A DNA stretch of 64,000 nt from Acetobacteraceae bacterium. Its GTDB lineage: Bacteria; Pseudomonadota; Alphaproteobacteria; Acetobacterales; Acetobacteraceae. The stretch covers positions 33,635-97,634 of the forward strand of contig JANXMB010000128.1 of the NCBI GenBank assembly GCA_025354865.1. The letters are read 5' to 3'. Positions 920-20,928 of the stretch are shown one piece after another. The notes under the pieces are model-generated. The model was not told the DNA's origin. It did no database searches and saw only the letters and a list, made by a program, of their open reading frames with translations. The first letter of the stretch is position 1; each line of letters begins with the position of its first letter. Made by a program: the position numbers and the translations under genes.

Positions 920-3900
920 TCAGGCGCTGACCTGCGTGCCGGCGCAAACCGAGATCCAGCGCGTTCCGTCGTGAAAAACCTCGACGCCGGTACCGGCGCC
1001 AGCGGCATCCGCCGGCTTTCGGCCGTTGGTGGCGAAGGCTTTCGCGCCTGCGCCCGGCGAGGCGGGGAGAGCGGCCACGGTATATGAAGGCATTACCGGT
1101 GGGCCCAAGAAGCGCGGCGCGATTGCATTGGTGCGAAAGATCTCGCGCCAGGTCGAGGATCCGTCGGAAACGACATGATAACGATCGTTCGGCCGAAGGA
1201 CGACCGGGCCATTGTCGATCGCATCCGACCCGGTCGTCGCAATCGTTACGACAGCCGTGCCGATGGCGGTGAATGTGAAGCCAACCCCAGCCGGTACCGT
1301 GCTGGCCGCAGGGAGCGTGACGGTATAGGTTCCGCCGCCGGCCAGAAAGACGAGATCGCCAGCGATATAGTTGGGCAGCGTGGTATTGCCGCTCGCGACA
1401 TATTGCCAACCGACAGTAATACCCTTACCGACGACATAGGACAGACTGCCCTGGTTCCAACGTAGAGTGCCTGTTGTGCTGTCGTAGGCCAGATTGTTAT
1501 TGCCGCTCGGTTCGAAAGATATCGAATGCCCGGCTGCGAGCCGAATGGCCGAGCCCCCCGTCAATTGGACGGCATTGGTTGTGTCTAGAACCGAGCGATT
1601 GAAGGGAATGCCGACATTGAATACCGTCTTTGCCCGCCCGGACGATCCCGCAGCGAGGTAAACGCCGATGATATTGCTGACCTCGACCGGTGGGCCTGCC
1701 GGGTTATGTTGCTGCACAACAAGGGATTGGATCTGCCGATTATTGGCATCGTCCAGCCCATTCGCGATGAGGTCCATTTCGACCGTCAGGGAGGCATTCG
1801 ACCAACTGGACGGTTGCCCCGTGGTATCGCGCATTTCGAGGCATGCGGCCCAAAGTTGGGGTTGGGGTAGCGGTGCGCCGCTGCTGTTTGTCCCAATCGT
1901 TTGTCTAACAGTTTGTACATAGCGGCCGACATGCTGTGCCGGCGTGGTCGCGGAAGGTGTTTGCACGCCCGTCCAAATCAGCCTGTCGAGCCCTCCCCAA
2001 ACATAGTTGTTCGGGCTGTTATAGACAATGGTATCGGTCCGAGCATTCGCGATAACCGATCCTGTTGTGCCCCCGTTATGGTTCACAATATAGGATGAAT
2101 GTAAGACCGCGAGATCGGACGGTTGCGAACTGCCGGCGGAAAATTCGCCTCCAGTTGCGGTGTTGCCCACCGCAACCCCGGGCAGGACCAGGGCTGCCGG
2201 GTTGGTGCCGGTCGGGATAGCGGACACCAGCGGCGTTCCATCGACGAGCGTAGTCCCGTCGACTGCCCATTTCACCCGTTTCGTTAACGACACACCCCAT
2301 GCATTGGGGTTTTGGAGGACGGCTACCCCGAACGGCACATAGATGACCGAACCGGCGGGCGCAGCAAGATAGGCGGCTTTGAACGCGGCGGTATCGTCGG
2401 CCACACCGTTCAATAAGGCGTTGTATGGTGCGGCCTTAACGTTGATGGCTCCAGCGGCGTTGGTTGCCGTATCGACATACTGCTTGGTGGCCGCTCCCAT
2501 CGGTGCGGTCGGCGATGCAGCCAATGTCAACGCTCCGGCCAGGGTACCCCCTGACAGCGGTAGCGTGGTCGCCACCTGCCCATCCACGTATTGCTTGGTA
2601 GCGGCCTGGTTGGCTGCTGCGGGGCTGCCGGTCAATGTCAACGGACCGGTAAGGGTCCCGCCATTCAGCGGTAGCGCCGCACCGACCTGGGTGTCGACAT
2701 AGCGCTTCGTTGCTGCCTGAGCGACCGAGGTCGGATCCGCATTCAGCGACAGTGGCCCGGTCAGAGTGCCCCCGGTCTTGGGCAGCGCGCCAGCGACCTG
2801 ATTGTCCACGTATTGCTTCGTGGCGGCTTGCAGAGCGGCCGTCGGATCTGCCGCCAGCGTTAAGCCGCCGGTGAGCGTATCGCCATTTCTGAGGATGCGC
2901 GCATCGGCGTATTGTTTGGTAGCGGCTTGCAAGCTCGACGTCGGATCGCCCGACAGAACTAACGACCCTGTCATCGTCCCGCCCGCCTTCGGGAGGGCGG
3001 CCGACGCCTGGTTATCGACGTATGCCTTCGTCGCTGCCTGTAAAGGCGCTACAGGGTCGGCAGCCAGCTGCAACGCGCCGGTCAGAGTGTCGCCGTTACG
3101 CAAGAGCCTCGCATCGACATACTGCTTCGTCGACGCCTGCAACGGTCCGCTCGGATCGCCCGGAAGCGTGAGGGCGCCTGCTAGCGCTCCCCCAGTTTTG
3201 GGCAGGGAGAGAGTCGTCTGACCGTCGACGTATCCTTTTGTCGCGGCCTGCAACAGCCCCGTCGGATCGGCTGCCAGAGTAAGTGGGCCGGTCATCGTGT
3301 CGCCGCTGCGCAATACTCTGCTGTCGACATACTGCTTGGTTGCAGCTTGCAGATTGGTCGCGGGATCGCCCGATAGCGTTAACGCGCCGGTTACGGCCCC
3401 GCCCGCTTTGGGAAGCGCCGTCGCCGCCTGACCGTCGACGTAATTTTTTGTCGCAGCGTGCAGGGGCGCCGTCGGATCGGACGCCAGGGTTATCGGACCC
3501 GACAGCGTGCCGCCGACTTTTGGCAACGCTGTCGCAATCTGCCCATCCACATAAGCTTTGTTGGTCGCCTGACCGGCCACTGTGGGGGCGCCGTTCAAAA
3601 CCAGCGGTCCGGCCATGGTCCCACCGGCAACCGGCAACATGTTGGCTGCAAGATCGGCCAATTTTACGCTGCTGCTTGTCCCGGTCGGAAATACCAATGC
3701 CTGCGACGCATTGACATTCGCGACGCCAGGCAGACCGCTCAGGAACTGGCTGAAGGTCACCGAGGTGTTGGTGCCATTTTGACTGACTGGAATAACGTCG
3801 GTCGGCGCTGGCACGCTACCGGACGCAAGTTGGGTTACGGAAAAGGGCGTCGCCAGGGCCACAAGGGTGGACCCGGATAGCAACAGATTCGCACCGAGTG

Positions 3901-4093
3901 CGATAGTCTCGGGTGCGCCGATGCCGGAGGATGCGCGGCCCAGCAAAGTGCCTGCCGGGATAGCCAAGGTAGGCTGCACCCCGGCAAGTATTTTCGATCT
4001 GGTAATTTTGCGAGTCGTGCCATTTTGGCTGACTAAAATGACATCGGCGTCGGTGGCCGCAGTTGCGGGCGCAAGTTGGTCGATCGTAGGCAT
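920..4093 (-). CDS. Large phage tail fibre with about 11 repeats of the GGTLTGPLTLAADPTAALQAATKQYVD type and a pectate-lyase-like segment
   Basis: 1057 aa ORF; repeated (K/N)xYVD units typical of tail fibre shafts; ..GVADDTAAFKAAYLAAPAGSVIYVPFGV resembles the start of a pectate-lyase_3/beta-helix domain; located at the fibre end of the tail module. Confidence 0.85.
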   Translation of the reverse strand: MPTIDQLAPATAATDADVILVSQNGTTRKITRSKILAGVQPTLAIPAGTLLGRASSGIGAPETIALGANLLLSGSTLVALATPFSVTQLASGSVPAPTDVIPVSQNGTNTSVTFSQFLSGLPGVANVNASQALVFPTGTSSSVKLADLAANMLPVAGGTMAGPLVLNGAPTVAGQATNKAYVDGQIATALPKVGGTLSGPITLASDPTAPLHAATKNYVDGQAATALPKAGGAVTGALTLSGDPATNLQAATKQYVDSRVLRSGDTMTGPLTLAADPTGLLQAATKGYVDGQTTLSLPKTGGALAGALTLPGDPSGPLQASTKQYVDARLLRNGDTLTGALQLAADPVAPLQAATKAYVDNQASAALPKAGGTMTGSLVLSGDPTSSLQAATKQYADARILRNGDTLTGGLTLAADPTAALQAATKQYVDNQVAGALPKTGGTLTGPLSLNADPTSVAQAATKRYVDTQVGAALPLNGGTLTGPLTLTGSPAAANQAATKQYVDGQVATTLPLSGGTLAGALTLAASPTAPMGAATKQYVDTATNAAGAINVKAAPYNALLNGVADDTAAFKAAYLAAPAGSVIYVPFGVAVLQNPNAWGVSLTKRVKWAVDGTTLVDGTPLVSAIPTGTNPAALVLPGVAVGNTATGGEFSAGSSQPSDLAVLHSSYIVNHNGGTTGSVIANARTDTIVYNSPNNYVWGGLDRLIWTGVQTPSATTPAQHVGRYVQTVRQTIGTNSSGAPLPQPQLWAACLEMRDTTGQPSSWSNASLTVEMDLIANGLDDANNRQIQSLVVQQHNPAGPPVEVSNIIGVYLAAGSSGRAKTVFNVGIPFNRSVLDTTNAVQLTGGSAIRLAAGHSISFEPSGNNNLAYDSTTGTLRWNQGSLSYVVGKGITVGWQYVASGNTTLPNYIAGDLVFLAGGGTYTVTLPAASTVPAGVGFTFTAIGTAVVTIATTGSDAIDNGPVVLRPNDRYHVVSDGSSTWREIFRTNAIAPRFLGPPVMPSYTVAALPASPGAGAKAFATNGRKPADAAGAGTGVEVFHDGTRWISVCAGTQVSA

Positions 4094-4162
4094 GGGATTA
4101 ATCGTCCCCTACAGCGGGAATATGCGACGTACAATTCAAGATTGGTAATATCGTAATGAGTA

Positions 4163-4648
4163 TTACAATGTCGCCACGACCGGATTGCCATTTTGGTCGG
4201 TTAAGACGACCCCAGCACTGGTCTGGATCGCGTTCGCGGGGATCGGAGGCACCGACAATTCCAGGACAGGCAGTAAAACGCTGCGTTGGATCGCGCGACC
4301 ATTCGTCGTCGTAATGGAAAGCGTGATTGTATAGACCGTGCCCGCTTGCCCGCCCGCGAGCCACAAAATGGCAACGGTTCCGTCCACGCCGACGTTGTTG
4401 ACGGTGAGATCGCCCGGATTCGACGGCGCGACCGAAACGTTCAACGTTGCAATCGTATCGGCGGAGTTACCGAGGACTGCCGGAGCGATGTCCAGTTGGT
4501 AGTCCAGGACGTCCTGCGGGTCTTTGGTCGGCCAATTGAGCGGGGCCGGTGCGGCCGCAACCGAACCGCGCGGTACAGGTACGAATGAGTCGATGACGAC
4601 CGAACGCGCCGAACTGGGCTTCCAAACATATGTAACGGCATTGGTCAC
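4163..4648 (-). CDS. Phage protein with Ig/fibronectin-like beta sequence, possible fibre-tail adaptor
   Basis: 161 aa, lies between fibre genes; beta-rich sequence ...TVAILWLAGGQAGTVYTITLSITTTNGRAIQRSVLLPVLELS. Confidence 0.5.
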   Translation of the reverse strand: MTNAVTYVWKPSSARSVVIDSFVPVPRGSVAAAPAPLNWPTKDPQDVLDYQLDIAPAVLGNSADTIATLNVSVAPSNPGDLTVNNVGVDGTVAILWLAGGQAGTVYTITLSITTTNGRAIQRSVLLPVLELSVPPIPANAIQTSAGVVLTDQNGNPVVATL

Positions 4649-4674
4649 AGGGCGAGCCTCCTAAATATTTTCGA

Positions 4675-5928
4675 TTACCATCTCACGACCACAAACCCAC
4701 CTGCGCCAGCGGCGCCGGCGTACGGGGTGGATCCTGTCGCGCCGGTTCCGGCGCCGGAGGCACCGCCACCTGGAAACAGTCCGTTTACACCGGTCGTTCC
4801 GCTATTTTGGGTGCCACCCATCGGAGCGGCGCCGCCCATGCCCCCTTGGCTTCCCGACCCGGCCTGGCCGGTCGATCCGCTTAGATTGACATCGCCGCCG
4901 ACCCCGATCCCTGGCGGCGTGGCTCCGTTCTGGGGCGATGCATTGGTCGCGAGGTAGTTGAGGCTGCCGCCTACGGCGCTGACAAACGTGCCGAAGCTCG
5001 AAGTTCCGCCAGCAGTGGGAGCGGACCCGCCGCCGGCACCCGCGCCGCCGCCAGCGCCGATCCCGACGGCGATCTGTTGCCCCGGACTTAAATTGGCGAT
5101 TCGTTTCTTGGCGTAACCACCGCCAGAACCGCCGCCGCTGGGCGCGCCGCTGCTGGAGGCGAAAGTGCCCGAACCGCCACCCCAGAGCTCGACTTCGACC
5201 TGGGATACGCCGTTCGGAACGACGAATGTCCCCGACGATGCAAAGCTCTGCACCCCCGATCCAAACCCTGGCCGGAGCATGGGCAGTTTCCATAACTGGG
5301 CTGGCGAGCCGACGGCCGGAACGATCGAGGACAGCTCGATCGTGGACTGACCGTAGGATACCGAGATTGTGTATAAAGGCACCCAACCTGCGTCGGTCGT
5401 CGGCACGACCTGCGATCCAGAAGCGGCAGGAATTCCGGGCTTTAGTTGCAACTGCACTTGCTGAGACCGGCGGGTCGCCTGTGGTTGCCCAGAATTGGCC
5501 GGACCGGAGTAGGGCTGCGACGGGTTGGCCGCATTGTAATAGGGTAGAACGACTGGGTTACTGTCGCTCTCTTGCAATGTGGCTTCGATCAGATAAGCGA
5601 TCGACTGCCCGGGTGCGGTCGGCGCCGGCAGCATAAATTGTGCCGGACCCGAAGCGATCCCCATTTTCACCAGTGGCGTGCTCGCATCGGCGGGCAGGGA
5701 ACCGTAGGGCGCGACGTCGACAACAGACATTTGCGTGAGGCTGCCTGCCGACACTGTTATCGACATCGACGACGGTACGCTCGGTGCGCATGTCAAACCA
5801 TCGACGACCGGATTGTTGCCCAATACCATTTGCGCCAGATAGCCCAGCGCAACCATGGCATTTCGATTGGTCGCGAGCATGTCGGTGTCGAGTGGGATAC
5901 CACCCGGGTACACCATAATCCTGTCCAT
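4675..5928 (-). CDS. Phage tail fibre/tip protein with Gly-rich C-terminal domain
   Basis: 417 aa; C-terminal Gly-rich GGGSGGGYAKKRIANLSPGQQIAVGIGAGGGAGAGGG...; downstream of baseplate gene order J-I. Confidence 0.7.
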   Translation of the reverse strand: MDRIMVYPGGIPLDTDMLATNRNAMVALGYLAQMVLGNNPVVDGLTCAPSVPSSMSITVSAGSLTQMSVVDVAPYGSLPADASTPLVKMGIASGPAQFMLPAPTAPGQSIAYLIEATLQESDSNPVVLPYYNAANPSQPYSGPANSGQPQATRRSQQVQLQLKPGIPAASGSQVVPTTDAGWVPLYTISVSYGQSTIELSSIVPAVGSPAQLWKLPMLRPGFGSGVQSFASSGTFVVPNGVSQVEVELWGGGSGTFASSSGAPSGGGSGGGYAKKRIANLSPGQQIAVGIGAGGGAGAGGGSAPTAGGTSSFGTFVSAVGGSLNYLATNASPQNGATPPGIGVGGDVNLSGSTGQAGSGSQGGMGGAAPMGGTQNSGTTGVNGLFPGGGASGAGTGATGSTPYAGAAGAGGFVVVRW

Positions 5929-5954: not shown

Positions 5955-6641
5955 TTAATTGGCGATATTTGTCCAGGCGACGACGCCGGTGGGGGCGATG
6001 CGTGCCACCTCGGTCATGATTTGCCCGTCGCTCAGGTGACCGTCGATAAGGGTCGCATCGACATACTCCAGCGCGCCGAGACCATAGGCGCCGTCGTGAC
6101 AACCCCAACCGGACGCGTTTGCGACGCCGTTCCCATGGGGTCGGAGTACCGTTACAAAAAACTGAAATGGCAGAAAGAGATTGCCCCATCCTCCTCCGAC
6201 CCCGTAACCGACTCCGCCGCCGATCCATGCGCCATTCGTGGACCAGGTCGCGTAGCCGCCGGTATCGCTGGTATTGCGGGGTTCGAAGATCGACGGCGGC
6301 CGACCCGTAAGTTCGGTTAAACCCTGGGTCAGAGCCCGTCGCGTCGCGAGCGGCCTTAGGATATTCCGCTTTATTGTTGCTCGAAACAGATCGTCGGCTT
6401 GTCCCTCGGGCCGTCGCAGCGCACTCTCGAAGAAATCGTAGGCGAACATGTCTAGCCAGATCCCGGTCGTCGTGGCCAATCGAAGTTGAACCCGAGCTGA
6501 TTCCAGGAGTTGAAAGGATTGTTCCCATCCAGCGCCCAAGGCGGTCAGAAGCGTATCCAAAATCGGTGCGGCATCGCCGAACCATCGGGACGGCAAGACC
6601 GCTTTCAGACGGCGCACGATATCTTTGCGATCGGTCGTCAT
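5955..6641 (-). CDS. Phage tail protein, P2 gpI / DUF2313-like baseplate wedge
   Basis: 228 aa; order after baseplate J; ..RLKAVLPSRWFGDAAPILDTLLTALGAGW.. Confidence 0.65.
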   Translation of the reverse strand: MTTDRKDIVRRLKAVLPSRWFGDAAPILDTLLTALGAGWEQSFQLLESARVQLRLATTTGIWLDMFAYDFFESALRRPEGQADDLFRATIKRNILRPLATRRALTQGLTELTGRPPSIFEPRNTSDTGGYATWSTNGAWIGGGVGYGVGGGWGNLFLPFQFFVTVLRPHGNGVANASGWGCHDGAYGLGALEYVDATLIDGHLSDGQIMTEVARIAPTGVVAWTNIAN

Positions 6642-6642
6642 A

Positions 6643-7767
6643 TTACTGCACCGTAACCGATTGAGCTCGGAATATCTGGTATTCTGACCCGACGAGGTCG
6701 GATGTACCGCTGTTGATGGCTATACTGGAGATGTTGGAAATCGGATTTCCGGATCGGTAAGCGGTCTCGATAATGCGCGTTACCGACAACGTGGACCCGA
6801 TTTCCAAGCCGTCGATGTAGTCGGAAATCGCATTCTTTATCGCGCCGACGGTCGCGGTGTCGATCGTCAACCCTCCCGCAGCGAGGGAAATGGCCACGTT
6901 GACCGGCACGATTTCGGCTTGCCGAACGGCGAACGTCGAACCGATCGGACGGACTTCGTCGATGACCTGGTAAAGGTTCCCACGGAGCGTATCGGTTAAC
7001 AAGTCGGTTCCGTCGTCGGCGATCGCCAGAAAATGGCCGGGTGCCCAGGTCCCGGTCGAATCCCGGTTCTCGAAAATCTTGAAGCGCAAATTGCGCTGTA
7101 GCGAACGTATCGCGTAGGCCACAGCCGCGGTCGTTGCTTGGGATCGGCTGTTTATGTAGTCGCGAAATCTCGCGCGAAACTGCGCGTCGGACTCGGCATC
7201 GAATCCGCCGGACAAAGCATACGAGTTGGATACGAAATCCAGGCCAGGAACGGCCGAACCTAACACGGCTATCGAACCAGCCGCGACGTTCCCATGTGCA
7301 CCCGCTACCATCGCGACGATCGGCAAATCGACCGACGCGACCCCAATTGGGACGATGTAACTATCGTTTGCCGGTTGCCATGCAGGATGGCTCGTGTCGG
7401 CAACAACCGTGAAACCAATATTGTCGACCAAGGCTTTGGCGACGGTGCCGGCCGGGATGAAAAGCACGATACTTGCCGACAAGCGGGAGAAGGTTGCCGT
7501 ACCCTGTGCCTGGGAGGCCGGCTGGCGGGCCAACGAAAAATCGCCCATCCAGGTATCGAGATCCCCTCCGGTGCTGGTAGCGGCGCGGGTCATCTGGAGG
7601 GTCTGCGCGATCAGCCACTGCATCCACAAGCCGATGGACGCATTAGCTTCCAAGATGGCCCGCAGCATGGAGCCAGGCGAGAGATCGATCAACTGACTTG
7701 CGGAAGTTTGGACGGCAGCCGACATTCTTTGCAATAGTTGCTGGAATGTCTGAAAAGACAATTGCAT
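6643..7767 (-). CDS. Baseplate J/gp47 family protein
   Basis: 374 aa; DLSPGSMLRAILEANAS, ...AGAHGNVAAGSIAVLGSAVPGLDFVSN..GGFDAESDAQFRARFRDYINSRSQ typical of baseplate J. Confidence 0.85.
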   Translation of the reverse strand: MQLSFQTFQQLLQRMSAAVQTSASQLIDLSPGSMLRAILEANASIGLWMQWLIAQTLQMTRAATSTGGDLDTWMGDFSLARQPASQAQGTATFSRLSASIVLFIPAGTVAKALVDNIGFTVVADTSHPAWQPANDSYIVPIGVASVDLPIVAMVAGAHGNVAAGSIAVLGSAVPGLDFVSNSYALSGGFDAESDAQFRARFRDYINSRSQATTAAVAYAIRSLQRNLRFKIFENRDSTGTWAPGHFLAIADDGTDLLTDTLRGNLYQVIDEVRPIGSTFAVRQAEIVPVNVAISLAAGGLTIDTATVGAIKNAISDYIDGLEIGSTLSVTRIIETAYRSGNPISNISSIAINSGTSDLVGSEYQIFRAQSVTVQ

Positions 7768-7771
7768 TTTC

Positions 7772-8152
7772 CTACCCCGTTATGGGTATTGAAATAGAAT
7801 CCTGAGGACCATCCTGAACCGTCGAATATCGGATCGTTACACCGAACGTGCCTAGTCCAGGCGCACCAAGCGTCGATACGGCGACCTCGGGTCCGGGCAT
7901 TCGACTGACGGCGGCTTCCATCAGAACTTGCGTGTGGACAACGGCTTTAATGCGTCCATTGGAGGTGGTGCCACCGATAAATCCGGGCAATCCGGCCCCA
8001 TAAGACGAATCCCAGATGTAGTCGCCCGGATTGGTTAGCAGGCGCCGGATAATGCGCTGTTTCGTTACCAGAGAGCCTGACGCGATCGCTAAATCGCCGG
8101 TGGGACCAACCTCCAGATCGCCGGCCCATCGATGCCCGATGTCGATAATCAT
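7772..8152 (-). CDS. Baseplate wedge protein, gpW/gp25-like
   Basis: 126 aa; ..GDLAIASGSLVTKQRIIRRLLTNPGDYIWDSSYGAGLPGFIG; immediately upstream of J. Confidence 0.65.
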   Translation of the reverse strand: MIIDIGHRWAGDLEVGPTGDLAIASGSLVTKQRIIRRLLTNPGDYIWDSSYGAGLPGFIGGTTSNGRIKAVVHTQVLMEAAVSRMPGPEVAVSTLGAPGLGTFGVTIRYSTVQDGPQDSISIPITG

Positions 8153-8155
8153 CGA

Positions 8156-8671
8156 TCAGTCCGTATTATTCGGTTGAGATGTAGACGAGCCGGATGCAGT
8201 GTTATGTCGATGTTCATTGTAAACACCTCGTAGATGGGCAAGAGAGCCATGGCGGTCGTAGACATCGCCATCGACATGCAGGTCGCCCGCAATAGATACT
8301 GTACCGTCGGTTTTCAATTTCAGACTGGCTCCGGATTTGTGCACGATCCAAAATTCACCCGCAGTTGCGGCTGGCGGTGCAGCCCGGTTCGAATAAGCAC
8401 ACCCGACAATGACTCCGTGTTCGGCATTGCCTTCCTGCGATATGGCAAGGACCTGGTCGCCGATGGCGAGCGGGCAGACGATGCCCCAACCAGAGCCGAT
8501 CCATGGAGACAGCACAGGTAGCCAACCGGTAATCGTGCCCTCCGGTTGAAGCAAAACGCGCGCCGTGTAATTCGTTGCATTAAAAGAAGAAATAGTACCG
8601 AAACGGGGTTGGGCCAGCGTGCGATCCAATTTGGCGGCCTGGACCCGAAGTGCGTCGAGAAGTCCATTCAT
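8156..8671 (-). CDS. Baseplate spike / assembly protein gpV-like
   Basis: 171 aa; FGTISSFNATNYTARVLLQPEG..VCPLAIGDQVLAISQEGNAEHGVIVGCAYS; C-terminal HEHRH-like HRHNTASGSSTSQP. Confidence 0.75.
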   Translation of the reverse strand: MNGLLDALRVQAAKLDRTLAQPRFGTISSFNATNYTARVLLQPEGTITGWLPVLSPWIGSGWGIVCPLAIGDQVLAISQEGNAEHGVIVGCAYSNRAAPPAATAGEFWIVHKSGASLKLKTDGTVSIAGDLHVDGDVYDRHGSLAHLRGVYNEHRHNTASGSSTSQPNNTD

Positions 8672-8716: not shown

Positions 8717-9769
8717 TCACGTTGCCAGAGTTGCTTGAATCGTCTGGGTAAAACCCGAGTTGCTCCGAAAAATGCGGGCGATACGTGCGATCTTGAATGG
8801 CCGATCGAAAACCGTATTGCTCCCGACCAGAGTGAAGTGCTGCCGTGCAGTCAATGTAAGGTCGGCGGGCATTTTGAAGTGGACGGATAAAGCGTCCCGG
8901 GCGATAGTTTTGGCGATTTTGGTTGCTAAGGTTCGGGCGGTCTTAGATTGAAGGTTGGGCTGTATAACCGCGTAGCGACGGGGCGATCGGGCCCCGGGGG
9001 GGCCGGTATAGCCATCCCCGTTCGACGCAAATGTCTCAGTCACGGCCTCTTGCTGCGCCGAATGCCAGCTCATAACCGTCAGATCGACACCATCGGATAG
9101 CGGCAATATGCGGTTCATTCTCAGGTCGATCAGGTCGTCATATGCGATCGACAGGATAGATTTCGAGGTATCCGCATTTGGTTGGAAACAGATCGTGTCG
9201 CCCGACATGTATAAATCGCAATCGGCAGTCTGCGCGAGCGTGACGAGCATATCCCAGTCTGTCGAGACTTGGGCGAATTGGGTCAGCGCCAAGGCGGTCG
9301 TGTCGCTTTCGTATGTGCGCCCGGCGTAAGGTCCGTCAGCGGCGAAGGTCGTCGTCAACCCGTGCGCCTCGGCAATATTAGCCGTGATTTCTCCAGGTGT
9401 TCGGTTTTGGAAATTGGAAAATGTCCTTGTGTCCAAGAGGGAAGCGGACAGGTCCCGCCCTTGCAGAACGACGAAGCCCGCAATCGGATGGATATGGACT
9501 GTGTCGCAATACCCCTCGATCAGATCGATAAATGGATCGACCGGACTGAGAGACGCCTGGATTCTGACGCGAACGCGCGATACCGACGCCCAATAGGACG
9601 CATCGTACTGGGTGATTTCCTTAAGCGATATCGCGATTGCAAATGTCGCCGCACCGAACGAAGCCGGATGTACAATTGCCGCGTTATAAGGAAATACACA
9701 GACCGTGTCGTCCAGCAGGGCCCTTATTTTGGGGAGCCGGATGGTCCCTGGGTCACTGCTGAACGACAA
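8717..9769 (-). CDS. Baseplate hub / late control gpD-like tail protein
   Basis: 350 aa; position before spike; ..RDLSASLLDTRTFSNFQNRTPGEITANIAEAHGLTTTF..TDWDMLVTLAQTADCDLYMSGDTICF. Confidence 0.75.
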   Translation of the reverse strand: MSFSSDPGTIRLPKIRALLDDTVCVFPYNAAIVHPASFGAATFAIAISLKEITQYDASYWASVSRVRVRIQASLSPVDPFIDLIEGYCDTVHIHPIAGFVVLQGRDLSASLLDTRTFSNFQNRTPGEITANIAEAHGLTTTFAADGPYAGRTYESDTTALALTQFAQVSTDWDMLVTLAQTADCDLYMSGDTICFQPNADTSKSILSIAYDDLIDLRMNRILPLSDGVDLTVMSWHSAQQEAVTETFASNGDGYTGPPGARSPRRYAVIQPNLQSKTARTLATKIAKTIARDALSVHFKMPADLTLTARQHFTLVGSNTVFDRPFKIARIARIFRSNSGFTQTIQATLAT

Positions 9770-9944
9770 CGCCGCCTCCGGCCGTCCGGTCGACTGGCGG
9801 AAGGGCCAATGTCGTGATGCCTGAAACCATCGGATCGCTGAGGCGGTTCAACTGGGCGATGCGAATCCACTGCGTTGCGTCGCCCAGGTATTGTGCGGCG
9901 ATCTGAAATAAATTCCCCGACACAATTGTGATTCTCTCAGTCAT
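9753..9944 (-). CDS. Small LysM/tail protein X-like
   Basis: 63 aa; TITIVSGNLFQIAAQYLGDATQWIRIAQLNRLSDP resembles LysM/tail X; lies between hub and adaptor genes. Confidence 0.6.
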   Translation of the reverse strand: MTERITIVSGNLFQIAAQYLGDATQWIRIAQLNRLSDPMVSGITTLALPPVDRTAGGGVVVQQ

Positions 9945-10681
9945 TATTGGACCCGTCCGGTCAGATATAGTTGTGCCTGGCCCAGGCAGTGTTGCGAGAG
10001 TGTAAGGGACTGCAAAGCCCCGGCCGCAGCCACGGCCACATGGAAGTCCTCCAGTGCCCGTGGCACGGAGGTAGAACTTCGTAACGCGACACGCGATATC
10101 GTAGCAGCCTGCCGTTCCTGTTCGGCCTGTATGGATGGCGTGAGCGTGTCCAGCATCGCGATCATCGCCTGCATCGCGCCCAGGCGGGCACCGATCGCCC
10201 CGGACGATATTGTCGGTCGAATGTCGGGGATGGGCACGGCCGGTTGAGGGGCGCTGTCATACATCAGGTTCAAGGACGCGATTGCATCGCCCGCCATCGA
10301 TAGTCCGGCTTGCAGAATGTCGTTGATCGGGTTCGATATCACCAAACAGGATAAGCGGTACGGTATCCACAGACGATTGCGGTATTCGGCCCGGAAATCT
10401 GATATTAATACGGAATATATCAAACTATCCCATGTCAGAATCAGCGGCAAACCGAGCGATCTCAGGCTGTCAAGTTCCTGTGCTCGCGCGGTTGCGTCGG
10501 GGCCGGATAGGAAACCCCCGAACGAGATCGTCGCGTCGTCGGGTCCCAGAGCGTCGGTTACGCGTCGACCCGACCCAAGATACCGGACAACTGCCCTTTG
10601 ACGCCCGCCGAATGTTATACTGGACGGTACCTCGAAGCTGCGGAACACGATCGGTCCAAGCGATAATACCACTTCTGACAT
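9944..10681 (-). CDS. Phage tail protein, hub adaptor/gpU-like or DNA-circularisation N-like
   Basis: 245 aa from internal ATG MSEVVLSLGPIVFRSFEVPSSITFGG (the longer track ORF overlaps the upstream gene); tail gene position. Confidence 0.5.
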   Translation of the reverse strand: MSEVVLSLGPIVFRSFEVPSSITFGGRQRAVVRYLGSGRRVTDALGPDDATISFGGFLSGPDATARAQELDSLRSLGLPLILTWDSLIYSVLISDFRAEYRNRLWIPYRLSCLVISNPINDILQAGLSMAGDAIASLNLMYDSAPQPAVPIPDIRPTISSGAIGARLGAMQAMIAMLDTLTPSIQAEQERQAATISRVALRSSTSVPRALEDFHVAVAAAGALQSLTLSQHCLGQAQLYLTGRVQ

Positions 10682-10700
10682 TGCAGAAATATCCGATTTT

Positions 10701-11690
10701 CTAGAAAAGGGGTGGCTGACCGGGCCAGGCTGGAATCCCATGGTTCGTCACGAAATTCGCCGTGGTAGGAGCCTGCGTAAGAGCGTGTTCGATATGATCT
10801 AGCATCCATTGGCCCAATACTTGGCCGTCGAGATGCACCTCAGCCGTTTCTAGCTGGTCCGGAAACTGCGAATGCCCGACCGGGGATCCCTGCGAGGGGC
10901 GATCGGCCCAATCCACACTCCCAGAGCCCTTCGGGACGATAGCGGTGCGCGGTATATTCGCCGATTGCGGTGCCAAGGGGCGATAGGACTGCATGTAGTC
11001 AGCGGTCGGACCCGGCCGGTCGGCAGTCGGTGCTTGTCGCGACGCCAGTTGGTCGCGTGCGCTGGCAATCTTGGTTGGACTGTTCTGCGCCGCTGAAGCG
11101 GGCACCGGGCGACCCACCCGGCCATCGGCAACCCGGCGTTTCCGTCCACCGGTGCCCGGCATCAACGGCGATATCCGGGCCGGTTGCGTCGTAGGAACGG
11201 TCGCAGCAACGACTTGTCGTTCCGATGCAGAACGAACATTGGTAACGATCGGCGTCGTCGCAGGTGCGTCGGTCCTGAGGCTCGTGGCACCTGTCGTCCG
11301 TTCGATCGAGCGCATTACCCGCAATGGGATGGGGCGATAACTATCGATCGATCGCGCCAGCGGACCAGATAAGGTTCTCAACGGGCGGTCGGAATCGTTG
11401 CGCCTGCCGCGTTCCCGCGCGTGCAGCCATGCCGGCGCGGCGCCGCTGCCACCGCTGGGGGCCAATCGATAGGTGCCACCGGCCGACGCCGCTACGACGA
11501 CAGGTCGGTAGATTGCACGGTTGGGGCGCATGAGCGGTGCAACGCCCGGTAAACCGCTGCGGCGACCCGCCATCTCGCCCGGGATCCGTGCGATCGATAG
11601 CCGTGGGCGCTTCGCACCGACCCAAAAGATGGGATCGATCGGCCGCGCGACCGTTGTGCCTTTTGCAAGCATGGAGCCACCTGATTTCAT
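10701..11690 (-). CDS. Protein in tape-measure position, Arg/Pro-rich, unusually short (329 aa)
   Basis: Sits directly after the tail assembly chaperone/frameshift ORF and before hub proteins, the usual tape measure slot; no long hydrophobic/coiled-coil body evident; C-terminal AEVHLDGQVLGQWMLDHIEHALTQAPTTANFVTNHGIPAWPGQP. Confidence 0.5.
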   Translation of the reverse strand: MKSGGSMLAKGTTVARPIDPIFWVGAKRPRLSIARIPGEMAGRRSGLPGVAPLMRPNRAIYRPVVVAASAGGTYRLAPSGGSGAAPAWLHARERGRRNDSDRPLRTLSGPLARSIDSYRPIPLRVMRSIERTTGATSLRTDAPATTPIVTNVRSASERQVVAATVPTTQPARISPLMPGTGGRKRRVADGRVGRPVPASAAQNSPTKIASARDQLASRQAPTADRPGPTADYMQSYRPLAPQSANIPRTAIVPKGSGSVDWADRPSQGSPVGHSQFPDQLETAEVHLDGQVLGQWMLDHIEHALTQAPTTANFVTNHGIPAWPGQPPLF

Positions 11691-12207
11691 TCGGACCCGG
11701 ACGCGTCATCCAGCCAGGTGCCGGAAGCCCAGTCGAATTGGCGACCGTCCAAAGTCCCGAACGCGACCACGAAGGCCTGTCGTTCGTCCGACGGTAACGA
11801 AAAAGCGACGTCGAACGGCACCCCGTTCCTGACCAAGTAAAGACAGTCGATCAGGCCGGGATGCCGAGCGAGTTTCCCACGTTGGTGTCCGCGTCGCGGT
11901 CGGCTTCGGCCAGTGTCTCGGCAACCGCGTCGAGCCCGCGATCCCCCAGACGACCGACGAGAATTTCGATCTGCTGTTCGGTGACCGGCATCGGCACCGG
12001 GATGCCATCGATCTCGATCACTGACGCGGCCAGCATGGCAACGCCGAGCCATGCTTGGTTTTCCGACAGCTCCGAGCCTGCGGCTTTCAACAGACGCAGC
12101 TTGTCCAACGCGTTGAGTTTCCGAACGCCCAGGCTGCGCCCGTCCTTGTCGACGGCCGACAGGCTTTCCTGCGCTGCAGCCAGAACGCGTGCGGTGGGGT
12201 TCATCAA
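11687..12207 (-). CDS. Tail assembly chaperone, predicted -1 frameshift fusion (112 + 61 = 173 aa)
   Basis: GGGAAAC at 11878..11872 (minus) in correct phase GT[G GGA AAC]; after -1 slip reads LARHPGLIDCLYLVRNGVPFDVAFSLPSDERQAFVVAFGTLDGRQFDWASGTWLDDASGSE to stop at 11687. Confidence 0.7.
11851..12207 (-). CDS. Phage tail assembly chaperone (0-frame product)
   Basis: 118 aa; between tube and tape-measure slot; overlaps tube stop (ATGA); ends NVGNSLGIPA*. Confidence 0.7.
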   Translation of the reverse strand: MMNPTARVLAAAQESLSAVDKDGRSLGVRKLNALDKLRLLKAAGSELSENQAWLGVAMLAASVIEIDGIPVPMPVTEQQIEILVGRLGDRGLDAVAETLAEADRDADTNVGNSLGIPA

Positions 12208-12632
12208 ATTCTCCGCCGCGTTGCCGCGAAAAATTCGAGTTTTTGTTTCACGCTGGCATCGCCGCGCCAGGTGCCGGAATTCGCAAGGCGGAACGCGACG
12301 CCGTCGTACTGAAACGTCGATGTCGAGCCGTCGGGCTCTGCGATGTATTGATACATCGTGCCGGTCGTCGAACCGGCGCCGTTATAGTATTGTTGTTCGG
12401 TCGAGGCGATAAAATCGTCCACCGCCGAGTTTCCGCGATCGAGTTCGAACGTTCCCTCCCAGCCTTTGGGAAGCTCTGTGCCCATATGCGTCCCATCGAG
12501 CCGGCTGACCCTGACCGATTGTGTCAGTTGGCGGCTTTCGAAAGCTGTGACGTACGACAGGTCGATGCGTCCGGAAGGGACCATGACGACCAATTGGGTG
12601 TCGCGACCGACTGAGAATGTGGTGAATGACAC
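12204..12632 (-). CDS. Phage tail tube protein
   Basis: 142 aa; directly downstream of sheath; ..MSFTTFSVGRDTQLVVMVPSGRIDLSYVTAFESRQLTQSVRVSRLDGTHMG. Confidence 0.75.
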   Translation of the reverse strand: MSFTTFSVGRDTQLVVMVPSGRIDLSYVTAFESRQLTQSVRVSRLDGTHMGTELPKGWEGTFELDRGNSAVDDFIASTEQQYYNGAGSTTGTMYQYIAEPDGSTSTFQYDGVAFRLANSGTWRGDASVKQKLEFFAATRRRI

Positions 12633-12645
12633 TTTCTAGCTCCCG

Positions 12646-14208
12646 TTAGGCTGGCTGACCGGAGGGCAGGGTCTGCGTCGAAACGCTGACGGTTTGCCCG
12701 CCTTCCAGGTTGATAAGGAAGATTTCGTTGATCGCTTGGTATTGGACCTGGATGTCCGCCTGGACATAACCCAGTCCTGTGCGGCTGGCTGGATTGTTTG
12801 ATGCATCGCAAACGACCCCGAACGGCAGCGCGCCGGTCACACTCCCCAGCATACCCTGGTTCAGCATATTTTGCAGAAACGACAGCAGCGTTGCTCGGAC
12901 CTGACGCAGCATGTTGGCATTAATCACCTGCCCGACATACAGACCCATCCCGGCAGCCAAGGTGGCGGCGATATAGTTGGTCAGTCGCGTGTAATTGTCG
13001 CCGTTGATCGTCGCGTTGGACGACGAATTCCGTCCACCGCGGACGCCCCAGAAACTCCCGGCCGGTTGCGGATTGCATACGACGTCGATGCCGGCCCGGA
13101 GCAATGCCGAAAGATCGGCGGCCGAATAGGACGTGTTCTGACCAGAGCCGGGAGCACCGAAGTTCTGGCTGCCCAAAACCCCATACAACGGCTTATTCAA
13201 ACTGGACTGCTCGGGAGAAAGATTGGCGAGCCGACCTACGACGAAGCCCTGCGGCGAAACCAGACGAATGGTGTTGTTCGTCTGATCCGACCACCAAAGC
13301 CAATCGCCGAACATCGTTTTCACGGCATAGGAGTCGATGCCCGCTGCATGCATCGTCGTAATGGCATTCTGGATCGTGTCGCCCGGCGGCCCCGTCAGCA
13401 CCATGTAGACGCCTTCCTGCAGCGCGAACGCGACCTGAGCGGACCAACTGGCGGGATCGGTCGCATCGGCGACCATCGCAATGCCGCAACCTTGACCTCG
13501 CAGGGCGTACAGACCGGTGCGGGTCGTCCCATCCTGTCCCAACAGTTGGGTTGCCCCGATGCCGGCGTGGCCGTCGGTTCCGGGTACTGCGTCACCGAGA
13601 GCGATCGAGAAACCAGTCGGCGTCACCGTGGCGCCACCGGCGTTGGCGGAAATCAGGCGGGACGGCCCGCGCTGCGGTCCTTGTCCGGTGTTGACCGCCG
13701 TCGCCAGATTCGCCCAGAACGACGCTCCGGTGCCCGCAATGTTGTCGTAAAGCTCCGGTCGAGCACCGGGGAGCGCGACGAGCAACTGCCAGGTGGCCGG
13801 CTTGGAACCCGGTTGCAAGGTCACGACGATACGGTTGCCGAGCGAGCCGGTATGGATCGCGGTAAACGTAACGGTCGTGCCCGGCGGGCCACCCACCGCA
13901 GCCGTATCCGTGCCGTCTGTTACTCGGACACATCGGAAGTCCTGCGCGCCTTGCTGCACCGCGATCGCAAGCGGTGTGCCCAAATCGTGCTGACGGGCGA
14001 CGATCGGCCCGAAACCGGTGGCGTAATCGGCCATTGTGGCAACGATCACCGGTTGGCCGACGGGCCCCCACGATGCGGTGCCGACGATACCGACAATATT
14101 GGTGGGAACGCCGTTCAGCACCAGATTTTGCGGCGGAACGACCTGGACATAGAGATCGGGAACGATAAGGGCCGTCGTGTTGATGGCACCCTGTTGAACA
14201 ACTGGCAT
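12646..14208 (-). CDS. Phage tail sheath protein
   Basis: 520 aa; PPQNLVLNGVPTNIVGIVGTASWGPVGQPV.., ..NYIAATLAAGMGLYVGQVINANMLRQVRATLLSFLQNML: contractile sheath signatures. Confidence 0.9.
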   Translation of the reverse strand: MPVVQQGAINTTALIVPDLYVQVVPPQNLVLNGVPTNIVGIVGTASWGPVGQPVIVATMADYATGFGPIVARQHDLGTPLAIAVQQGAQDFRCVRVTDGTDTAAVGGPPGTTVTFTAIHTGSLGNRIVVTLQPGSKPATWQLLVALPGARPELYDNIAGTGASFWANLATAVNTGQGPQRGPSRLISANAGGATVTPTGFSIALGDAVPGTDGHAGIGATQLLGQDGTTRTGLYALRGQGCGIAMVADATDPASWSAQVAFALQEGVYMVLTGPPGDTIQNAITTMHAAGIDSYAVKTMFGDWLWWSDQTNNTIRLVSPQGFVVGRLANLSPEQSSLNKPLYGVLGSQNFGAPGSGQNTSYSAADLSALLRAGIDVVCNPQPAGSFWGVRGGRNSSSNATINGDNYTRLTNYIAATLAAGMGLYVGQVINANMLRQVRATLLSFLQNMLNQGMLGSVTGALPFGVVCDASNNPASRTGLGYVQADIQVQYQAINEIFLINLEGGQTVSVSTQTLPSGQPA

Positions 14209-16221: not shown

Positions 16222-17544
16222 TTAGCCGATGTGCTCGATCATCACCGCACGCTTGAAGGCGGCGTTGGTTGCGGTCGGGATCGTGGTCGGGGTGGTGGTC
16301 GTATCCGACGGCGTGCAGAAGCCACCGATCCAATACCAGGACTGGGCGATGATCTGCTGCAAGCGATCCACCGGTTCGCGAGTCACCATTGCGACGCCAT
16401 CGACCATCGACACGATCGAGTCGGCCGGCGCCACATCCTGCGCGGCCATACCGGCAAAATCCCCTTCGATCAGGGCGCCTTGACCGCAAACGATCGGCCG
16501 ACGGATCGTCGCCCCGGAGAGCGTCGGATGGGGCGTCACAAAGGCTTCGTTGGTCGTAACGAACCGTAGACCGAGGAATTCGTTGGTCATGCCGCGCTTG
16601 AAGACGAGGTTCGCCGACGTCGCACCCTGATACAGTTGTTTGAAATCGGCATCCATGAACAACTGCCGCGCGGACATCGGATCCAGATAGCAGTTGTACG
16701 CACCGCCGATATCGGGCACTGCATTCAGTCGCAATTTAGCGACGGAATCCAACAAAGCCCCCATGGTCAGGGTATCGGACGCCTGGATCAACGACGTATT
16801 GGTACGCTGATTCGGTCGGGAAACGGAGCAGGCTGTGGACGCGGTGGTCGTGTTACCCGCCGTTCCGTCGGCGACGGTGACATTGCTCGACAACGTGAGC
16901 ACGCCGGAAATGCCGTTCGGGGCAGTGGAATTGCTGGTAGTGTCGGCGACGGCGGCGATAGCGATATAAACGCTCGCACCGATCGTGACAGTCAGGGTGT
17001 TGGTCGAACTGACAGGCTGCTGGACACCATTGACGAAAACGGTCTGAAAGCCGCGCAGATCGTCGACTGCCACCGAGGGGCCAGCCGAGGAAAGGGTCGT
17101 CCGAACCCGGGTATTCCCACCGAAATACGCATTGTAAAGCGCATTGCGGGCAAGCTCGTCGAGACTGCGCGCCGCTTGCTCGCCATTCACATACGCGTTC
17201 TGCAGAAACTGCGACGCGATGCCGACCCGGCTGGTGACCATGTTCAAGTCGGTAGTCGCGGCATAGTGGTTGATGCTGAGCGTATACTGTTCGACACCCC
17301 ATCCGGTCGGCGTCAATCCATTGTCCAGATTGGTGTTGGCGGAAGCCGTCAGCGGAGTCGTCACCGTCGGTTTCAGACCGGCGCGGGTTTTGGTCAGCGT
17401 TTCGCCGATACCGACGGAAATCGCTTCGCGATCCGCGCAGGATCGGTACGCCAGCCGCGAACGCAGCGCCTGTTGAAATTCCCGCTCCAGAAAACCTTGT
17501 TGGATGATCGGTTGCAGCGTGGCGGGGAAATTCTGAATGCCCAT
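16222..17544 (-). CDS. Phage major capsid protein
   Basis: 440 aa; follows scaffold-like ORF and portal; MGIQNFPATLQPIIQQGFLEREFQQALRSRLAYRSCADREAI..., ..YLDPMSARQLFMDADFKQLYQGA. Confidence 0.8.
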   Translation of the reverse strand: MGIQNFPATLQPIIQQGFLEREFQQALRSRLAYRSCADREAISVGIGETLTKTRAGLKPTVTTPLTASANTNLDNGLTPTGWGVEQYTLSINHYAATTDLNMVTSRVGIASQFLQNAYVNGEQAARSLDELARNALYNAYFGGNTRVRTTLSSAGPSVAVDDLRGFQTVFVNGVQQPVSSTNTLTVTIGASVYIAIAAVADTTSNSTAPNGISGVLTLSSNVTVADGTAGNTTTASTACSVSRPNQRTNTSLIQASDTLTMGALLDSVAKLRLNAVPDIGGAYNCYLDPMSARQLFMDADFKQLYQGATSANLVFKRGMTNEFLGLRFVTTNEAFVTPHPTLSGATIRRPIVCGQGALIEGDFAGMAAQDVAPADSIVSMVDGVAMVTREPVDRLQQIIAQSWYWIGGFCTPSDTTTTPTTIPTATNAAFKRAVMIEHIG

Positions 17545-17669: not shown

Positions 17670-18083
17670 TTAAGATCGGTGACGCAGGATCGCGTCCCGC
17701 GCGACCTGGTATTCGGCGTCGGTCATGTCGGTCGCAAGCTTTTGGCGCGGCGGTTGGGACGGCGGTGCGTTGCCGGCGGCAGAGGTAAATGCCCGGCCGA
17801 ACAGCCATGGTTTGTCCTTGCGAACCTGCGCCATCAATGCAGTTGCCCCCTGCACTTCCCCGTTATCGGAAACGACGACGCCGGTCAGATCGAGCATTTT
17901 CAACCCGTCCAGATCGACCATCCCGGCACGCATCGCCTCGGCTTGCAAATGAGCTTTTACAATCCCGCTCTCGGCCCGCTGTTTCACCTGGACCAATTCC
18001 TGTTCCAGGTGCTCGCAGCGTGCTCTGAGTTCCGCCACGGGATCCGCAGCGGGATCGTTGTCGTTATTCTCGCCAGACATCAT
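17670..18083 (-). CDS. Phage scaffold-like protein
   Basis: 137 aa, charged/helical N-terminus VAELRARCEHLEQELVQVKQRAES; between portal and capsid genes. Confidence 0.55.
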   Translation of the reverse strand: MMSGENNDNDPAADPVAELRARCEHLEQELVQVKQRAESGIVKAHLQAEAMRAGMVDLDGLKMLDLTGVVVSDNGEVQGATALMAQVRKDKPWLFGRAFTSAAGNAPPSQPPRQKLATDMTDAEYQVARDAILRHRS

Positions 18084-19495
18084 GGCTCCTTCTGGTTCCG
18101 ATCGGTTTCAATGCGATTGAGTTCACCCGGGACATCTTCGATATCGTAAGATGAAGCCAGGGTTTTCACGGCCGTCTCACGGCTGATATGTCCAGCATTC
18201 GCCAGCGTCGAAAGCGTTTGCGCGTCCCGTTGACGGTCCTCGGATGTGGGCGGATACCAGGCGGGCCAGCGTAACGATAGCGGCGCCGTCGTATCCAACG
18301 GTCCGATCTGCCGACCGGCGACGATCAACGAATATCGGACCGATGCCCGGACCACCATGCGCATCAGCGCCAATAGGGCGCCCTCGCCGTAGGTAACCCG
18401 CAGATTATCGGCCAGCCACAGTAAGCCTTGGTTCAACATCTCCAGGGCGCGACCCGATTGTGCGGCGGTGAGCTTGCTGGGGCTGGCCCGATTGCCATGG
18501 ATGCTTTCCAAGGCGAATTCCCGCAGCAACCGCACATACTCGATGACGGCCGAGGATGCGGTACCCCCGATTTCGAGCAATCGTGCATCGCCCTTCTCGC
18601 TGACGATCAAGGCATTGCCGGCACCTCTGACGATCTCGGAATCGACACCGGCCGGTTCCTTGATCAAAAGCGTCGGGTCGCTGCTGTATTTCAGCCCACG
18701 CCCGGCTTGGCTGAGCTGATAGTCGATTTCGATCTGCGTCTCGATAGCGGCCTGGAATGTGCAGGCGCCATCGTTGCTGTCGCCGGTCACCGAAAAGCCG
18801 GGCAAGTTACGAATCCAGACGATCGGCACGAAACCTAGGCCGTGTCGAACAGTACGGGTCGTATCGATGTCCGGCGGAAGGTTGGATGCGGTCGGCGATG
18901 GCAGGAACCATGTTTCGGTTTCTGTATCCCAATGACGGGCGAACCAGTAGTCCTGATCGATATCGTCGATCTCGTAACCGCTTGCGGCCAGCACGTGGCC
19001 CGATACTTTGTAGCGTTCCGTGACGGACAGCAGATCGTCCGGCGCCGCCGGATCCCATGTCGGGGTCAAATAGAGTGTATCGACGTAGCTGAAAAAGACG
19101 CGTCCGCGCAGAACGCGCATTAGCACGGCAGCGGAACCGATCGAACCTTTGATGGCCGTTTCCGTCATTACGAGGTTCAGGCGCGTTTCTTTGATCAAAT
19201 CGGCCAGGATGCCCCGCAGCGTATGATCCGGGCAGTCGACCGAGGGAAAATGCCCCTCGCTGAACAAGAGAGAAACGCTATCTTCGACGACCAGCCGACA
19301 AAGCGGATACCGGACGCTGGGGCGCCGATTTCGCAGTGGAATATACTCTCCGCCAGCGCCGCGCTCTTCATTGAATGAGTAAGGCAGGATATTGTAAAAT
19401 GTGCCGGTAAGGACGCGGTTCAATATATCCAGCGTGCGTGTGCGGCCGGGATAAGCGGTGTCTCTGGGGACGAGGGCACCGATCGTGTCGAACAT
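18080..19495 (-). CDS. Phage portal protein
   Basis: 471 aa; downstream of terminase; SPP1/anti-CBASS-portal-like architecture, ..TQIEIDYQLSQAGRGLKYSSDPTLLIKEPAG. Confidence 0.8.
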   Translation of the reverse strand: MFDTIGALVPRDTAYPGRTRTLDILNRVLTGTFYNILPYSFNEERGAGGEYIPLRNRRPSVRYPLCRLVVEDSVSLLFSEGHFPSVDCPDHTLRGILADLIKETRLNLVMTETAIKGSIGSAAVLMRVLRGRVFFSYVDTLYLTPTWDPAAPDDLLSVTERYKVSGHVLAASGYEIDDIDQDYWFARHWDTETETWFLPSPTASNLPPDIDTTRTVRHGLGFVPIVWIRNLPGFSVTGDSNDGACTFQAAIETQIEIDYQLSQAGRGLKYSSDPTLLIKEPAGVDSEIVRGAGNALIVSEKGDARLLEIGGTASSAVIEYVRLLREFALESIHGNRASPSKLTAAQSGRALEMLNQGLLWLADNLRVTYGEGALLALMRMVVRASVRYSLIVAGRQIGPLDTTAPLSLRWPAWYPPTSEDRQRDAQTLSTLANAGHISRETAVKTLASSYDIEDVPGELNRIETDRNQKEP

Positions 19496-19512: not shown

Positions 19513-20928
19513 TTATCTTGATAGGTGAAGGCTGGCGATCTTCCGGGTGGGAGTGCCCAGATTCACAAGCGTCATAAAGGCCCGCACGAAAGCATCGACC
19601 TGATCGTCTTTGCCTCCGTAGGGAAAATCCCTTAATTCATCGGCAAATATGCGATTCCAATCCGCTCGCACGATCGAAACATTTCCGGCTTCGACCTGCG
19701 ATGACAAAGGTTGTGCCCGGACAATCTTCGAACCGCTTTCGCGTGAAGCAACCACATGGTAACCGGCGAGAAGCCCGGTCAGATGGGCCACCTGACTCTT
19801 GCCGGCTTGGCCCGGATCTTCGGGAAGGCCGACATGCACCGATGGTCCGTCGGTTCGTGCCGCTGCGAGAATGGCTTGCTCGATATCGCGTGCCGTTCCG
19901 CGGGTGCGCACAACGTCCAGAACCAGGAATTGTCCGGGCCGTTCCAGTCGCAATTTGACCCCGACGGTCCAGTCGGGATTGTTCGTACCATTCGCGACCG
20001 TTGCCGCCAGATCCCATGCCCGCACGGTCCTCCCGCCCGGGGTGGAGGACCCATCGACGGGCACCAGACAGGCAACTTTGAACATGCCGCCTTCGAGTGG
20101 GCGGGGCGATTGCTGATAGGCCGCGAACCAAGCCCGTTCTCCGACGGTCGCGCGCTTTCGTGCGAGAGCGTGGACATCTTCCCACTCCGGCCAAAGCGCA
20201 GCGCCGGGGGGGCGTCCGAGCGGATCGGCGTCTTCGGCGATGGCGGGAAGTCGGAGAATGCGCCAACCGTCATCGACATGTTGCCGGAGACGGCCAGCAA
20301 GATCGTCTTCGTGCCATCGTGTCATAACGATGAGAATGCGGCCTTTCGGCTTCAGGCGGGTTGTCAGGTCGGATCGATACCATTCCCAAAGCCGATCCCG
20401 ATCGGTATGTCGGTCCGCCTGCGCCTGACTGCCAACAGGATCGTCCACGATCACCAGATCGGCTCGGCGTCCGATAATCGAGCCCCGGGTTCCGGCAGCG
20501 AAATATTCTCCGCCGTTGGAGATACGCCATTGCAATGCCGATCTGTTACCCTTGGCCAGTGTGTAACCGAGCTGGGCTTCTTGGGTCGATATCAGGTCGC
20601 GGACCTGCCCGCCAAAATAGGCGGCGAGCGAGGCATTGTGGGACGCGGCGATGATGGAGCTACCGGGATGCTGCCCAAACCACCAGGCTGGGAATAGTTT
20701 CGACGCGAAGGTCGATTTTGCCGAACCCGGCGGCATGTGGACGAGAAGCCGATCGATGCGACCGGCCGATAGCGATTCCAATTCGCTCAGCAGCAACCGA
20801 TGGTGCCGAGCGGGGGTTTGGTCGGAGCTTTTCAGAACATGGACAGCCCAATCAGAGAGAGTAATAGGAGACGAATTCACCGGAATCGTCGCGGCCTCGG
20901 ATTTGCGGTCGTCTTGCGGACTCCTCAT
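19513..20928 (-). CDS. Phage terminase large subunit
   Basis: 471 aa; Walker A-like HMPPGSAKSTFASKLFPAWWFGQ; ..GRRADLVIVDDPVGSQ (Walker B); C-terminal nuclease-like ..AWDLAAT... and DDQVDAF. Confidence 0.92.
   Translation of the reverse strand: MRSPQDDRKSEAATIPVNSSPITLSDWAVHVLKSSDQTPARHHRLLLSELESLSAGRIDRLLVHMPPGSAKSTFASKLFPAWWFGQHPGSSIIAASHNASLAAYFGGQVRDLISTQEAQLGYTLAKGNRSALQWRISNGGEYFAAGTRGSIIGRRADLVIVDDPVGSQAQADRHTDRDRLWEWYRSDLTTRLKPKGRILIVMTRWHEDDLAGRLRQHVDDGWRILRLPAIAEDADPLGRPPGAALWPEWEDVHALARKRATVGERAWFAAYQQSPRPLEGGMFKVACLVPVDGSSTPGGRTVRAWDLAATVANGTNNPDWTVGVKLRLERPGQFLVLDVVRTRGTARDIEQAILAAARTDGPSVHVGLPEDPGQAGKSQVAHLTGLLAGYHVVASRESGSKIVRAQPLSSQVEAGNVSIVRADWNRIFADELRDFPYGGKDDQVDAFVRAFMTLVNLGTPTRKIASLHLSR

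Follow-up and report, generated by a model that had tools for sequence, protein, structure and literature searches.

The gene in the tape-measure slot of a contractile tail cluster in the 64,000-nucleotide stretch of DNA analysed here (the window) encodes a protein of only 329 residues, which we read as a core-less tape measure. The particle to which it belongs is a vertically inherited, domesticated and most likely gene transfer agent (GTA)-like particle of the Acetobacteraceae, a reading that we regard as probable. Short slot proteins recur across the family, and in part of the Acidocella lineage the slot gene is absent altogether.

The tape-measure slot and its gene cluster

The slot gene occupies positions 10701–11690 of the minus strand (329 aa by ORF reading of the window), a plus-strand reading of the same interval being ruled out by seven stops in frame. 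The open reading frame pointed out by the first-pass annotation is therefore real, and the strand that it left unstated is minus. The ATG of the slot gene overlaps the stop of the −1 frame of the tail assembly chaperone (ATGA), and the gene lies between this G/GT-type chaperone, which carries a GGGAAAC heptamer, and the baseplate tube initiator. Its earlier placement in the tape-measure slot is borne out by sheath, tube and chaperone genes before it and by tube initiator, LysM-like and hub genes after it.

The whole cluster runs on the minus strand in the order terminase, portal, small gene, capsid, neck genes, sheath, tube, chaperone, slot, tube initiator, LysM-like protein, hub, gpV, gp25, gpJ, gpI and fibres. 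Its first gene encodes the large terminase (19513–20928, 471 aa; PHROG 38, E 5e-92; PF03237/PF17289), followed by the portal (18080–19495, 471 aa; PHROG 145, E 4e-13), the major capsid protein (16222–17544, 440 aa; PHROG 1357, E 3e-35) and the contractile tail sheath (12646–14208, 520 aa; PHROG 23 tail sheath, E 7e-45). The tail tube (12204–12632, 142 aa) is assigned from its position after the sheath and matches a family that carries no annotated function (PHROG 12993, E 1e-41). The function of the chaperone, a 118-aa G-type ORF in the zero frame (11851–12207), is likewise assigned by position and frameshift, its PHROG match having no annotated function (PHROG 20383, E 2e-18). By sequence reading, the −1 frameshift heptamer lies in the zero frame at 11872–11878, 25 nt before the chaperone stop, and the −1 frame extension that forms the T-type part of the GT fusion (11687–11877) is conserved in frame among relatives. 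Of 80 distinct chaperone genes, 74 have a heptamer of this kind, GGGAAAC in 61 and AAAAAAC in 13.

Downstream of the slot, the baseplate tube initiator (gpU; 9944–10681, 245 aa) combines a tube-like N-terminus with long C-terminal helices. Its best Foldseek matches are baseplate proteins of Mu, Milano and diffocin (E 5e-7 to 1e-5), with low to moderate TM-scores that point to a fold class and not to close kin; an IMG/VR search with the tube initiator as query returned no confirmed relative. A LysM-like (gpX-type) protein of 63 aa (9753–9944) was recognized by eye as a small ORF that recurs in relatives. It is followed by the hub (gpD-like; 8717–9769, 350 aa; PHROG 52 tail protein, E 2e-6), the gpV-like spike (8156–8671; PF04717), a gp25-like baseplate wedge (7772–8152) and a gpI-like tail protein (5955–6641), both assigned by position and co-conservation, with baseplate J between them (6643–7767; PF04865, E 3e-33). 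Three fibre ORFs of 417, 161 and 1057 aa (920–5928) close the cluster within the window; a 561-aa fn3 fibre extends to the left of it and is followed by a 691-aa gene. In one related locus (L048, oriented 9307–12452), an insertion of two ORFs (759 and 368 aa) separates the tube initiator from the hub; they are mutually similar and glycosyltransferase-like by eye.

The element contains no second gene of tape-measure size, including the part left of the window: its other large genes (417, 1057, 561 and 691 aa) are fibre-type, and host genes start left of about C38:30750. The suggestion that a tape measure might reside elsewhere in the prophage, beyond the left edge of the window, accordingly found no support among the cluster genes or in the leftward stretch. 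The window comes from a draft genome in 190 contigs, and the genus, assigned by tree position and named relatives, is Rhodopila-like and uncultured.

The slot protein itself is of low complexity (P+R+S+T 38%, with R 11% and P 12%) and contains no hydrophobic stretch (maximum 19-residue Kyte–Doolittle value of 0.76). An AlphaFold2 model built on an alignment of 24 rows shows disorder throughout except for a helix at residues 289–305, in a block with pLDDT values of 82–96. Low confidence outside the helix agrees with disorder and, with an alignment of this depth, is no proof of it. Residues ~289–306 (10772–10826) are the only segment predicted to be ordered, and D288, G289 and G293 are invariant in the 24 sequences. 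This helix is a probable anchor to the hub and tube initiator. The C-terminus, earlier described as a distinct segment, is indeed conserved in relatives: the dN/dS of the C-terminal 60 aa is mostly 0.13–0.28 in the close pairs where it is computable, compared with 0.37–0.70 between close relatives for the body, which is less than 40% identical in many close pairs. The capsid, sheath and tube genes show values of ~0.02–0.11 (Nei–Gojobori method, with several pairs near synonymous saturation). The length of the slot protein varies little within clades (coefficients of variation of 3.1, 2.5 and 0.7%, and 11.9% in a fourth, mixed set). This constancy is no more than suggestive of selection on length.

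Short slot proteins and long tape measures

Relatives were gathered through the neighbouring tube initiator, through the capsid in named genomes and from fetched loci; the slot proteins of the L066/L183/L185 group, missed by a motif filter, were added by hand. Nearly all slots compared hold one low-complexity protein. The 51 distinct short slot proteins, that of the window included, measure 250–444 aa (median 322), have a P+R+S+T share of 27–45% and for the most part lack a long hydrophobic stretch. They agree in slot, composition and C-terminal motif, so that the description of the window protein as very short and of low complexity extends to the family, as does its size once ORFs are compared across related elements. 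The common C-terminus follows the consensus ~GDVFLDGxxLGRWxxxHLAxxAxRPPxGxTGFDPRMxPxWPG, which in the window reads AEVHLDGQVLGQWMLDHIEHAL...GIPAWPGQP. About 20 short slot proteins, all outside the window's genus, share the N-terminus MIDAYTIGIxLALDDGVSxG...; in the window's genus this motif is lost, as is an HK97-gp10-like gene found between chaperone and slot in many relatives.

The short family resembles a long tape measure at both ends. Among ~12,000 ORFs, a profile of the short N-termini matches residues 5–52 of the long tape measure of locus L068 (E 4e-5), and a profile of the C-termini matches its residues 764–805 (E 1e-7), which argues that the short proteins are tape measures without a middle. 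On this sequence evidence the short slot proteins are tape measures minus their core, and the shortening is ancestral. The window protein itself joins the long tape measures through its relatives, via the C-terminus only; the 329-aa sequence has no Pfam match and no PHROG match up to E 0.1. The tape measure of the Komagataeibacter phage phiKX1 is unmatched by either profile, its only link being a 490-aa slot protein (L069) whose extreme C-terminus aligns to the extreme C-terminus of the 742-aa phiKX1 protein (E 0.001).

The window protein therefore has the chaperone-to-baseplate position of a tape measure, after a G/GT frameshift chaperone, and homology to one through the family termini. Tape measures typically have a long body that is mostly helical and includes hydrophobic or transmembrane stretches. 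Such a body is missing here, and for this reason we call the protein a core-less remnant with a disordered P/R/S/T-rich body and not a typical tape measure. Long tape measures at the same position do exist in relatives (~807 aa in L068, 742 aa in phiKX1), a finding that the first-pass annotation would have read as a sign of deletion here, but they do not reveal a local deletion in the window, since the short form is family-wide. The same fact, together with the strong purifying selection on sheath, tube and capsid, speaks against the earlier alternative of a tape measure lost by local accident from a defective particle.

Vertical descent of the element and absence of the slot gene in part of Acidocella

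The element is phage-derived, bears a capsid and measures ~24 kb. Of 247 well-assembled family genomes, 110 carry its capsid gene, which occurs in 46 of 91 genera, usually in one copy, and is among the most conserved genes of the element (65–88% identity across the main clade). A sub-lineage of acetic-acid bacteria, at 50–59% identity, takes in true phages as well as genomes with several copies. When 289 genomes from across the class were sampled, the sheath was confined to the Acetobacteraceae. A tree of capsid, sheath, tube and gpJ from 27 genomes agrees with the rpoB tree in each of the five multi-member genera and in most of the deeper groups (Mantel r 0.45–0.66, p 0.001–0.008). Host flanks are shared as well: one with a DinG-like helicase is common to the window, L128, L129 and L140, a second set to nine Rhodopila-clade loci and a third to twelve Acidocella loci. 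Given the concordance of the element tree with the rpoB tree and the flanks common within genera, the element is vertically inherited. No tRNA was found near it, no integrase was seen in cluster or flanks, and no replication genes were seen in the cluster on inspection. Of 1088 core-gene alignments, just 34 contain a stop; many of these concern the chaperone, whose frameshift leads one to expect it.

By these sequence characters the element is domesticated. Like a gene transfer agent, it is inherited vertically, co-diverges with its host, keeps head and tail genes under purifying selection and shows, on inspection, no integrase or replication genes in its cluster; it is probably GTA-like and may still produce particles. 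An R-type tailocin is ruled out by the presence of capsid, portal and terminase, and the integration module and horizontal movement of an active temperate phage were not found.

In 26 loci the terminase is preceded by a divergent XRE regulator and a DUF6362 gene. This pair was first read as a host locus marker; it belongs to the element and is therefore not used as synteny evidence. In the window's genome the XRE gene, a small HTH gene (GcrA-like by eye) and the DUF6362 gene lie on a separate contig (G000:C144:1203-2511, L295), so that the element is split there. Such dispersal of regulators recalls gene transfer agents.

At least 592 stretches in IMG/VR (loci L207–L286) encode this capsid, and many of them are probably the domesticated element and not viruses. 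GOX1212, GOX1215, GOX1222 and GOX1224, listed as Acetobacteraceae-specific phage proteins (PMC2241609), and the phage-like contigs of uncertain origin common in Sphagnum (PMC12142844) are, matched by description, probably either this element or the related one of acetic-acid bacteria; neither study recognized domestication or the loss of the tape measure. The open-access literature yielded no paper in which the element is called domesticated or a contractile GTA.

The slot gene is absent from ten distinct elements of the Acidocella lineage (L178/L059, L179, L180, L182, L184, L186, L188/L060, L190, L193 and L196). In these, the tube initiator starts 9–54 bp after the second frame of the chaperone. 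The frameshift site is kept in eight script-scored elements and is visible in L178 and L188 also. With few exceptions the core genes are uninterrupted and of full length, and capsid, sheath and tube dN/dS values are 0.03–0.11 in computable pairs. Other Acidocella loci (L191, L200, L201 and L205) retain a slot protein of 244–287 aa, and on the capsid, sheath and tube tree the absence maps as two changes. Among named strains, Acidocella facilis ATCC 35904 and A. aromatica DSM 27026 lack the slot gene; Rhodopila globiformis DSM 161 has a slot protein of 301 aa. In the slot-less elements a tail with chaperone, tube, sheath and baseplate is thus apparently kept by selection with no tape-measure gene in the slot. 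Since total loss is possible, the slot gene is not indispensable. The terminase alignments of L193 and L178/L059 contain stops, as does the gp25 alignment of L193, through either assembly error or starting decay. Both this absence and the vertical inheritance of the element had escaped the first-pass annotation.

Competing readings and known systems

Under the preferred reading, the C-terminal helix most likely still plugs into the baseplate hub and tube initiator, while the disordered P/R/S/T-rich body would thread the lumen of a short contractile tube. The chaperone pair produced by the −1 frameshift would still help tube assembly, and the remnant may nucleate or space tube polymerization. 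Where part of the Acidocella lineage lacks the remnant, tail length would be set otherwise. If the usual scaling holds, the tail would be short, ~45–50 nm. The phiKX1 tape measure (BCZ76066, 742 aa) serves a tail of 98.9 nm (n=3; PMC8566455), that is 0.133 nm per residue, which for 329 aa gives ~44 nm; at 0.15 nm per residue the predicted value is 49 nm. The earlier argument for a tail of about 50 nm thus stands as a prediction, and a fully extended body would allow up to ~100 nm. Particles of Acetobacter orleanensis NBRC 3170 have 43-nm heads and 46.6-nm contractile tails (PMC8566455, Table 1), the tails having the length that would be expected with a core-less tape measure.

An unlikely but serious alternative is that the slot protein is no ruler now: only its hub-anchoring C-terminus would matter, the lumen would be free for cargo, the body would be filler or a loading scaffold, and the element would be an injection device. 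The weakly constrained body, the intact tails of Acidocella elements without the slot gene and the tape-measure-derived effector known from a Streptomyces contractile injection system (PMC11126660) are consistent with this. So are the cargo-like genes that immediately follow the slot protein gene in four loci (L035:52-1184; L036:4264-5366; L037:906-1202; L045, oriented, 3632-4756), which share an N-terminus (~MDDxxIPxxxWFxGDPPPDL) and have variable C-termini, among them a lytic transglycosylase fold (L035) and Ntox44 (L045), with a DUF4279 gene next in L036. Followed by small genes, they resemble polymorphic effector–immunity pairs borne by the tail. However, the window's slot has no cargo gene, the capsid, portal and terminase that are kept would be superfluous in a pure injection device, and slot protein length is near-constant within clades.

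That the slot gene now has no function and is simply decaying as part of a defective prophage we consider improbable. Loss of the N-terminal motif in the window's genus, a near-relaxed body and total loss in Acidocella relatives would fit decay, but the ORF is kept in the lineages that carry the gene, its C-terminal 60 aa remain constrained, and the low dN/dS of head and tail genes extends to the slot-less elements; nor would decay predict a capsid gene retained, usually singly, in half of the genera with so few stops in the core genes. Least credible is an ordinary, horizontally moving temperate prophage with an unusually short tape measure. The related phages phiKX1/2 of Komagataeibacter are real, and hundreds of IMG/VR contigs carry the capsid gene, but this reading is already contradicted by trees congruent with rpoB, loci fixed within genera, the lack of an integrase on inspection or of a tRNA site, and the position of the regulator genes on a different contig in the window's genome.

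A bolder form of the core-less tape-measure reading, which we put forward tentatively and do not ourselves expect to hold in full, is that a contractile-tailed gene transfer agent ancestral to the Acetobacteraceae is discarding its tape measure. The protein would first have become a core-less disordered spacer and then have gone from part of Acidocella, where the chaperone or the helical tube initiator would perhaps set the length in its stead. For long tails, a tape measure is treated as the universal means of length control, and this element family offers a natural series from long through core-less to absent. As the series lies in genomes of cultivable acidophiles, the building and sizing of a contractile tail without a tape measure becomes directly testable. 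The analysis also brings to light a contractile element with a capsid, spread by vertical descent across the family, that virus databases list as viruses.

Among known systems, phiKX1 is a real phage. The long tape measures of phiKX1 and L068 occupy the same slot between the same neighbours as the short family, but are 2–2.5 times longer than the window protein and have a lower P/R/S/T share; long proteins also contain hydrophobic stretches (maximum Kyte–Doolittle values of 1.68 in L068 and 1.88 in L067). The contractile injection system of Streptomyces davawensis has a tape-measure-related effector, Tme (PMC11126660), which resembles the window protein in being the product of an altered tape-measure gene in a domesticated contractile system. 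Tme is, however, a large protein that contains a nuclease domain and transmembrane helices; both are missing from the window protein, whose element keeps the capsid. RcGTA, the gene transfer agent of Rhodobacter capsulatus, is also an alphaproteobacterial head–tail cluster with a very short tape measure: g11 has segments of 113, 83 and 20 residues and serves a 49-nm tail (PMC7296036). RcGTA differs in its non-contractile, siphovirus-type particle and in a tape measure that contains a long helix and forms a trimer. As RcGTA demonstrates, a very short tape measure is enough for a workable 49-nm tail (PMC7296036).
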